NCBI RefSeq assembly: GCF_016756745.1
Contig: NZ_JAESIH010000025.1
Location: 124,001 to 188,000, forward strand
Direction of reading: 5' to 3'
DNA length: 64,000 bases
Origin: Aminivibrio sp.
Lineage (GTDB): Bacteria > Synergistota > Synergistia > Synergistales > Aminobacteriaceae
Shown here in pieces: positions 5,799-21,950 of the stretch (position 1 is the stretch's first letter; every line of letters starts with the position of its first letter). The notes beneath the pieces are model-generated. The model was given only the letters and a program-made list of their open reading frames with translations. It was not told the origin of the DNA and did no database searches. Made by a program: the position numbers and the translations under genes.

Positions 5799-5931
5799 CC
5801 GCAGCCGTCTGCGGGGAATCCAGTCCCGTGCGGCGGAGATCTCCGAACCCTGTCAGGCCCGGAAGGGAGCAGCAGTAAGGAAAATTCTCCGGGTGCCACG
5901 GGGAAGCTGGGTTTCCCGCAGACGGCTGCGG
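5799..5931 (+). ncRNA. ffs: signal recognition particle RNA (4.5S type)
   Basis: The core GTCAGGCCCGGAAGGGAGCA (5852-5871), with the GGAA tetraloop and the conserved asymmetric loop bases that bind Ffh, identifies bacterial SRP RNA. A perfect 17-bp terminal stem closes the molecule: CCGCAGCCGTCTGCGGG (5799-5815) against CCCGCAGACGGCTGCGG (5915-5931). The RNA is about 133 nt, slightly longer than the 114-nt E. coli 4.5S RNA; I see no room for a Bacillus-like Alu domain. The true 5' end may be up to 10 nt upstream. The convergent csoR-family gene stops one base after the RNA's last paired base. Confidence 0.9.
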
Positions 5932-20437: not shown

Positions 20438-20465
20438 TTGACATATGTTTATTCCTCTGTATAAT
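20438..20465 (+). promoter_or_regulatory. consensus promoter of argG
   Basis: TTGACA (20438-20443), 16-bp spacer, TATAAT (20460-20465): both hexamers are perfect. Start expected near 20472. Such a strong promoter fits control by premature termination downstream. Confidence 0.85.
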
Positions 20466-20471
20466 TTTCTC

Positions 20472-20702
20472 GTCGGCGTTTTGAAAGGCGAAGACGGGGA
20501 AGAGTACTCCTTTGCGGGCAACAGAGAGGAAGAGCCGCGGCTGAAAGCTTTTCCGGCTCCAACGAGGAGGAAGAGGGCCCCTGAGCCTGTTTCGAAGAAA
20601 GGCTTTCGGCCAAGTAGAAACAGACACCGGGCGCATTGCGCGCAAGGCAGGGTGGCACTCGGGCAAACGCCCGCCCTTACCGGGGCGGGTTTTTTATTTT
20701 TA
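20472..20702 (+). promoter_or_regulatory. T-box leader controlling argG
   Basis: The 230-nt leader has T-box landmarks in order: AGTA of the specifier-loop 5' side (20502-20505), the AGAGAGGAAGAGCC / GCGGCTGAAAGC distal stem I block (20523-20547), the T-box AGGGTGGCAC (20649-20658) and a G+C-rich terminator (20670-20700). The tRNA-acceptor bulge reads TGGC, which pairs with GCCA, so it needs a tRNA with discriminator G. A likely specifier is AGG (Arg) at 20574-20576, after GGAAG and before a TGAGC stretch; CGA at 20563-20565 is a less likely alternative. argG makes arginine, so induction by uncharged tRNA-Arg is the natural reading. An in-frame extension of argG through this region is not a coding sequence. 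Confidence 0.82.
20670..20700 (+). terminator. T-box regulated terminator
   Basis: CCCGCCC (20670-20676) / GGGCGGG (20683-20689), 6-nt loop, then TTTTTTATTTTT. It competes with the antiterminator that forms around AGGGTGGCAC. Confidence 0.88.
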
Positions 20703-20723
20703 GAGTATCCTGGAGGGATTTTC

Positions 20724-21950
20724 ATGTCGAAAAAGGGCAAAGTGGTTCTGGCGTACAGCGGCGGTCTTGATACGTCCGTAGCCGTTATGTGGCTTACGGA
20801 ACAGGGATACGACGTGGTCACCATGACGGCCGACGTGGGCCAGCAGGCAGTGGATCTCGAGGCGGCGAAGAACAAGGCGCTGCGAAGCGGAGCGGTGAAA
20901 GCCTATGTTCTCGACCTCAAGAAGGTCTTTGTGGACAAATTCGTCTGGCCCTCCCTGAAGGCAAACGGTATGTACCAGAGCACCTACCCCTTGAACTCAG
21001 CCCTTTCGCGGCCTCTCATCGCAGAGGTTATGGCGGAGATAGCGAAGAAGGAAGGGGCGGTGGCCGTGGCCCACGGGTGCACCGGAAAAGGCCAGGACCA
21101 GGTCCGCATCGAAGTGTGCACCAATGCGCTCAACCCCGAGCTGCAGGTACTCGCGCCCGTCCGCGACTGGCACTTCACCCGCGAGGCGGAGATGGAGTAT
21201 GCTCAGGCCCACGGCATCCCCGTCCTTGCTACGGCCGCTTCGCCCTACAGCATTGACGACAACATCTGGGGCAGGTCCATCGAATGCGGCATTCTCGAGG
21301 ATCCGTGGAACGAGCCCCCATCGGACGCCTTCACTCTTACCGTCGATCCCTGGGACGCGCCGGATGAGCCGGAATACGTGGAGATCGCCTTCAACAAGGG
21401 GATCCCGGTAGCTCTTGACGGACAGAAGATGGATGGTCCGCTCCTCATCGAAACGCTGAACGCCAGGGCCGGACGGCACGGAGTTGGAAGGATCGATATG
21501 CTGGAAGACCGGCTTGTGGGGTTCAAGAGCAGGGAGGTCTATGAATGCCCGGCGGCTGTTACTCTGATCAACGCCCACCGGGCCCTTGAGACCCTGACTC
21601 TTGACAAGAAGGTCATTGCGGCAAAGAAAGAACTGGAAATCAAGTTCAGCGAGCTGACCTATGAAGGCTACTGGTTCTCTCCCCTGAAAGACGCCATCAA
21701 CTCCTTTATCGAAACGACCCAGGAGTACGTTTCCGGGCTTGTTAAAGTCAGGCTGTACAAGGGAGAAGCCGTAGTGAGAGGCATGAAGTCCGTGGATTCC
21801 ATCTACAGCCATGCCCTCGCCACCTATTCGGAGGGAGACGCTTTTGATCACAGCGCCGCCGTAGGTTTCATCAAGATCTGGGGACTTCCCATAAAGACCT
21901 GGAGGCAGGTCCACGAGTCAAAGGAAGCCATCGAGATTCCCGCCCAGTAA
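20724..21950 (+). CDS. argG: argininosuccinate synthase
   Basis: Joins citrulline and aspartate with ATP in arginine synthesis; 408 residues, standard size. ATP-pyrophosphatase P-loop AYSGGLDTSVA (about 10-20), substrate loops STYPLNSALSRPLIA (about 93-107), HGCTGKGQDQVR (about 121-132), PYSIDDNIWGRSIECG (about 180-195) and YECPAA. ATG 20724 has TGGAGGG at 20711-20717 and matches the family N-terminus; frames extending upstream pass through the T-box leader. No other arg genes are adjacent. Ends at a bidirectional terminator. Confidence 0.97.
   Translation: MSKKGKVVLAYSGGLDTSVAVMWLTEQGYDVVTMTADVGQQAVDLEAAKNKALRSGAVKAYVLDLKKVFVDKFVWPSLKANGMYQSTYPLNSALSRPLIAEVMAEIAKKEGAVAVAHGCTGKGQDQVRIEVCTNALNPELQVLAPVRDWHFTREAEMEYAQAHGIPVLATAASPYSIDDNIWGRSIECGILEDPWNEPPSDAFTLTVDPWDAPDEPEYVEIAFNKGIPVALDGQKMDGPLLIETLNARAGRHGVGRIDMLEDRLVGFKSREVYECPAAVTLINAHRALETLTLDKKVIAAKKELEIKFSELTYEGYWFSPLKDAINSFIETTQEYVSGLVKVRLYKGEAVVRGMKSVDSIYSHALATYSEGDAFDHSAAVGFIKIWGLPIKTWRQVHESKEAIEIPAQ

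Follow-up and report, generated by a model that had tools for sequence, protein, structure and literature searches.

The leader of the argininosuccinate synthase gene argG in this Aminivibrio genome is very probably a genuine class I transcriptional T-box that reads tRNA-Arg, to judge from family homology, covarying helices, an arginine specifier and a bulge complementary to the end of the matching tRNA. Its homology, its specifier and its UGGN sequence are the grounds for classing the leader as a T-box; its departures from the ACC sequence and the G-U pair of the discriminator core concern consensus features, not the definition, and it is a T-box with an unusual sensor and not a new class. 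All positions refer to the window, the stretch of 64,000 nucleotides that was analysed.

Family match and architecture of the argG leader

Searched with the Rfam model RF00230, the check named by the initial annotation for its proposed T-box leader on argG, the window gave a significant full-length match at 20482-20680 (E = 2.4e-13; all 219 model positions) with the Stem I landmarks aligned, although its score of 62.1 bits misses the gathering score of 93 bits; a default Rfam scan of the window is silent, and the match is shown in E-value mode. This cut-off is strict rather than diagnostic, because the six T-boxes of this genome score from 53 to 91 bits, every one of them below it, and 86 of the 135 T-box-bearing Synergistota genomes are without any T-box above 93 bits (49 have one).

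The elements of the leader are listed in Table 1. The promoter, described at first sight as perfect, stands with its coordinates; the strong terminator predicted before argG was also recovered. The spacer between the promoter boxes (20444-20460, TGTTTATTC or near) is conserved even in relatives that have no T-box, and is possibly an operator. The argG reading frame is open through the leader from an ATG at 20445 (20445-20723); gene callers may set the start of argG too early and in this way mask the T-box. On the 3' side, argG is followed by a terminator-like hairpin and by a gene on the opposite strand. The ArgG protein is 97% identical to its counterpart in a metagenome assembly assigned to Synergistaceae; the matches that follow all belong to Synergistota. 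Elsewhere in the window, positions 5817-5916 match the bacterial small SRP RNA (76.9 bits).

Table 1. Elements of the argG leader and gene, in window positions.
Feature	Position	Strand	Sequence elements	Basis or remark
Sigma-70 promoter	20438-20466	+	TTGACA 20438-20443, TATAAT 20461-20466, spacer 17 bp	Kept in relatives with and without T-box
T-box Stem I	20487-20587	+	Basal GGC/GCC, GGGG/CCCC, CTCCT/AGGAG, distal GGAAGAGC/GCUUUUCC; distal bulge AGAGAG 20523-20528	RF00230 alignment; helices 1-4, 93-100% paired, two-sided changes
Specifier AGG (Arg), decoded by tRNA-Arg(CCU)	20574-20576	+	AGG	Fixed-position rule and tRNA gene
Stem II with S-turn	20588-20622	+	S-turn strands GAAGAAAGG and AAGUAG (20612-20617)	RF00230 alignment; covariation of helices 5 and 6
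Stem III	20627-20647	+	GCGC/GCGC (20631-20634 / 20640-20643); CC/GG extension possible	Minimum-energy fold
Antiterminator	20649-20677	+	A1 AGGG/CCCU, A2 CGGGC/GCCCG; 7-nt bulge UGGCACU 20653-20659, with UGGC 20653-20656	RF00230 alignment; calculated energy; helices 9 and 10
Intrinsic terminator	20670-20695	+	CCCGCCC/GGGCGGG (20670-20676 / 20683-20689), then T6	Shares 3' strand of antiterminator; calculated energy; conservation
Ribosome-binding site	20712-20717	+	GGAGGG	By inspection
argG, argininosuccinate synthase	20724-21950	+	408 aa	Monocistronic by position

Conserved and covarying structure

Across 12 aligned leaders belonging to the same family, pairing at the 41 named pairs of Stem I, Stem II, Stem III and the antiterminator amounts to 93%, a figure that leans towards the window sequence from which the fold was drawn; this applies much less to the two-sided changes, which affect 25 of the pairs and are not reached in any of 500 shuffles. 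When the pairing partners are shifted by one column, pairing in the 12 leaders falls to approximately 55%. Terminator pairing is complete (100%) in 12 relatives. Antiterminator and terminator exclude each other through their common strand, and both hairpins are intact, with calculated energies of -11.9 and -18.2 kcal/mol, respectively; the mean terminator-antiterminator gap in relatives, 14.5, is larger than that of the window leader. The minimum-energy fold of the leader as a single sequence gave no T-box fold, and its stability is ordinary (z = -0.78).

Specifier and tRNA discriminator

The specifier was located by position only, by a rule that is blind to codon identity: counting back from the conserved GAGC at the base of the 3' strand of Stem I, one base, four lower-helix bases and one further base precede the triplet. 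For argG this rule returns AGG, the triplet already picked out as the likely specifier; for the other T-boxes of the genome, whose genes were named from their translations, it returns ACC (thrS and threonine synthase) and AAG (dapA, asd and lysA). The discriminators in this genome are G for tRNA-Arg (bulge UGGC), U for tRNA-Thr (UGGA, UGGG) and A for tRNA-Lys (UGGU). The expectation that TGGC, pairing with GCCA, calls for discriminator G agrees with the tRNA genes: the single tRNA-Arg(CCU) gene has a G-CCA end complementary to the UGGC bulge, and five of five tRNA-Arg genes carry G. Neither outcome that the initial annotation had named as refuting its reading, a lack of a significant RF00230 match or a different discriminator, was observed. 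Shifting the frame at the argG specifier to either side would call for tRNA-Gly(CCC) or tRNA-Glu(CUC), the discriminators of which (U and A) are unfit for UGGC; tRNA-Glu(UUC) has discriminator G and could conceivably read GAG by wobble, a reading ruled out by the arginine specifiers of the relatives.

Within the phylum, all 63 argG leaders scored carry an arginine specifier (AGA 34, CGC 18, CGT 5, AGG 3, CGG 3), counted over related sequences and not over independent events. A plain regular-expression search had misplaced the T-box site or the specifier in some leaders, and the rule was revised; in its automatic form it includes a stem check and omits approximately 12 leaders of family f8 and that of genome G121, which by eye have CGC or AGA. 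Moves between AGR and CGN that always remain within arginine are the pattern that codon-like reading by tRNA-Arg would predict. The fourth base of UGGN in the 63 leaders is C (33) or T (30) and no other, which fits the discriminator G of tRNA-Arg; this base is G in 43 of 45 tRNA-Arg genes from 30 Synergistota genomes, and the two others (anticodons UCG in G029 and UCU in G003) are not the isoacceptors for the specifiers of those genomes. The AGG specifier was seen only in the host genus, in three genomes (G000, which is the present one, G025 and G026). AGG is also the top arginine codon in the long reading frames of the window (354 of 1276). T-box specifiers are usually rare codons, and AGG usage in the window runs contrary to this habit.

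T-boxes across Synergistota

RF00230 matches were found in 135 of 188 Synergistota genomes, representing 57 of 63 genera. The argG gene was located in 166 of the 188 genomes; the upstream DNA was read for 106, and a T-box precedes argG in at least 69, distributed over families f1 to f5 and f7 to f11. In the genome studied here, further T-boxes are found at thrS (L001, C74:28654), the threonine synthase gene thrC (L002, C41:40269) and, with specifier AAG, at dapA (L003, C24:16201), asd (L005, C53:17952) and lysA (L006, C47:54214); AAG is the less usual lysine specifier, at 13% (PMC7778990).

T-boxes are best known in Firmicutes, and occur also in Actinobacteria, Chloroflexi, Deinococcus-Thermus and the two delta-proteobacteria Geobacter and Pelobacter (PMC2494555, PMC3766115). 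The initial annotation suggested that a T-box of the arginine pathway beyond Firmicutes and Actinobacteria would extend the range, and rightly took this leader for such a case: the host belongs to Synergistota, and argG T-boxes are present in at least nine GTDB families of this phylum, the outlying f11 included. One survey reported riboswitch enrichment in Synergistota in general terms (PMC12452182); the literature searched, with the main T-box surveys lying outside it, yielded no description of T-boxes for Synergistota, an earlier mention being possible, and the text of the TBDB paper does not name the phylum (PMC7778990). With 49 genomes above the Rfam cut-off, Synergistota T-boxes have probably been annotated automatically. 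The regulated gene and the mode of control belong to a known type; what is added is the host range, the AGG specifier and the variant discriminator. A T-box regulon is thereby documented throughout Synergistota, together with an evolutionary series on one gene, in which the arginine specifier takes five synonymous forms, Stem IIA/B is lost, a variant discriminator arises and the T-box can vanish altogether.

An altered discriminator core in the host genus

The initial annotation quoted AGGGTGGCAC from the antiterminator region correctly, and overlooked that the next bases are TCGGG where the consensus has CGCGG, so that the core of the T-box is non-canonical in its 3' half. Tested for ACC at the end of the bulge and for G-U at the base of A2, the window leader has ACU and C-G instead. 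The bulge reads UGGCACU, UGGCACA or UGGCAGU in the three AGG-specifier genomes (consensus UGGNACC), and the A2 base pair is C-G in all three. Among the other argG T-boxes, ACC is kept in 65 of 66 (the exception, G121, has AUC), and the A2 base pair, scored in 65, is G-U in 57, G-C in seven and A-U in one. In front of Stem III, where RRRxG-Stem III-AA is expected, the purine string is ACCGG with the short GCGC/GCGC stem or AGACA with the extended stem; in relatives, several stems were misplaced by the automated search for Stem III, and its RRRxG readings do not enter any count.

According to a review of crystal structures, ACC stabilises the discriminator and the G-U pair rejects charged, 3'-aminoacylated tRNA (PMC7583486). 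The disappearance of both in all three AGG-specifier genomes, while most other argG T-boxes, and as regards ACC the remaining five T-boxes in this genome, retain them, raises the question whether this T-box binds tRNA-Arg and separates charged from uncharged tRNA only poorly; it would then respond to total tRNA-Arg(CCU), or its sensor would have changed. The seven argG T-boxes with G-C for G-U look otherwise intact, which indicates that the A2 wobble is not indispensable, and the longer form of Stem III would place AGACA, AAACA or AGACG before the stem, near RRRxG, so that the other element of the charge sieve may have survived. Poor charge discrimination is the less likely state of affairs, if one to be taken seriously. 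With a similarly tentative standing, it can be proposed that the genus kept its argG T-box under strong purifying selection after the charge-sensing core had changed along with a switch of the specifier from AGA to AGG, and that in sensing tRNA-Arg(CCU) its check for aminoacylation may now be altered or absent.

It is considerably less probable that the T-box is functionless now and decaying towards loss. Loss has occurred nearby: G027 of the same genus and the near relatives G036 and G103 no longer have the sensor and retain the promoter and a terminator-like hairpin, and the argG T-box of G025 (L143 2724-2961) has its Stem II S-turn changed from AAGTAG to AGGGAG. Yet the ratio of leader to fourfold-site divergence in the AGG group, 0.11-0.25, is no higher than that of intact pairs (0.21-0.50), the AGG-group leaders diverging by 4-7% as compared with 28-38% at argG fourfold sites (in three genomes only); both alternative hairpins are intact, and UGGC and the specifier are constant in all three genomes. 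At the T-box-less loci of G027, G036 and G103 (L150, L146 and L147) the middle part is deleted, and one of them still has TGGCAC before the hairpin. In the ArgG tree the AGG species stand together with G028 (specifier AGA) as sister; the placement of the T-box-less species is not given by this tree. That the leader is a plain attenuator with a chance likeness to a T-box, for which its ordinary fold stability and the missed Rfam cut-off might be cited, is extremely improbable and is contradicted by the E-value, the phylum-wide orthologues before argG, the covariation and the invariably arginine specifiers.

Predicted mechanism and comparison with known systems

In the preferred reading, a T-box sensing tRNA-Arg, RNA polymerase would begin near 20473 and transcribe the leader, and the anticodon of tRNA-Arg(CCU) would meet the AGG displayed by Stem I. 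The GCCA end of an uncharged tRNA would pair with the UGGC bulge and stabilise the antiterminator (AGGG-UGGCACU-CGGGC/GCCCG-CCCU), blocking the terminator and permitting transcription of argG; with ample arginine, charged tRNA would let the terminator form and argG would be switched off. Binding of the tRNA, sensing of its charge and the direction of regulation are here predicted from sequence. Points that speak against this reading are the score below the Rfam cut-off, the altered charge-sensing core, the missing Stem IIA/B and the lack of a T-box in G027 of the same genus. The variant core offers a naturally occurring way to test which bases of the discriminator are truly required for sensing tRNA charging. 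Control by ArgR and an ARG box would act on the same gene; in this genome (100 contigs, rated complete) the best match to PF01316 reaches 13.7 bits, with the cut-off at 27, leaving the host without an ArgR above cut-off.

The leader resembles the T-box family RF00230 (type B. subtilis tyrS) in its Stem I with specifier and AGAGAG distal bulge, its Stem II S-turn and Stem III, its UGGN bulge, the strand common to antiterminator and terminator, and the biosynthetic gene downstream. It differs from the consensus in the 3' half of the core (ACUCGG vs. ACCGCG) and in the missing Stem IIA/B stretch, which shows in the alignment as a deletion of 25 consecutive model positions; close relatives, which retain the canonical core, share this absence and likewise have a short linker. 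Stem IIA/B is an optional module of the family; in ileS T-boxes it is required for tRNA binding (PMC7583486). The glyQS T-boxes are without Stem II and Stem IIA/B; the argG leader likewise has no IIA/B pseudoknot, yet it retains Stem II and the S-turn. With the arginine T-boxes of TBDB, in which CGC accounts for 52%, AGA for 24% and AGG for 4% of specifiers (PMC7778990), the argG leader has the arginine specifier in common, its AGG being a minority form there.
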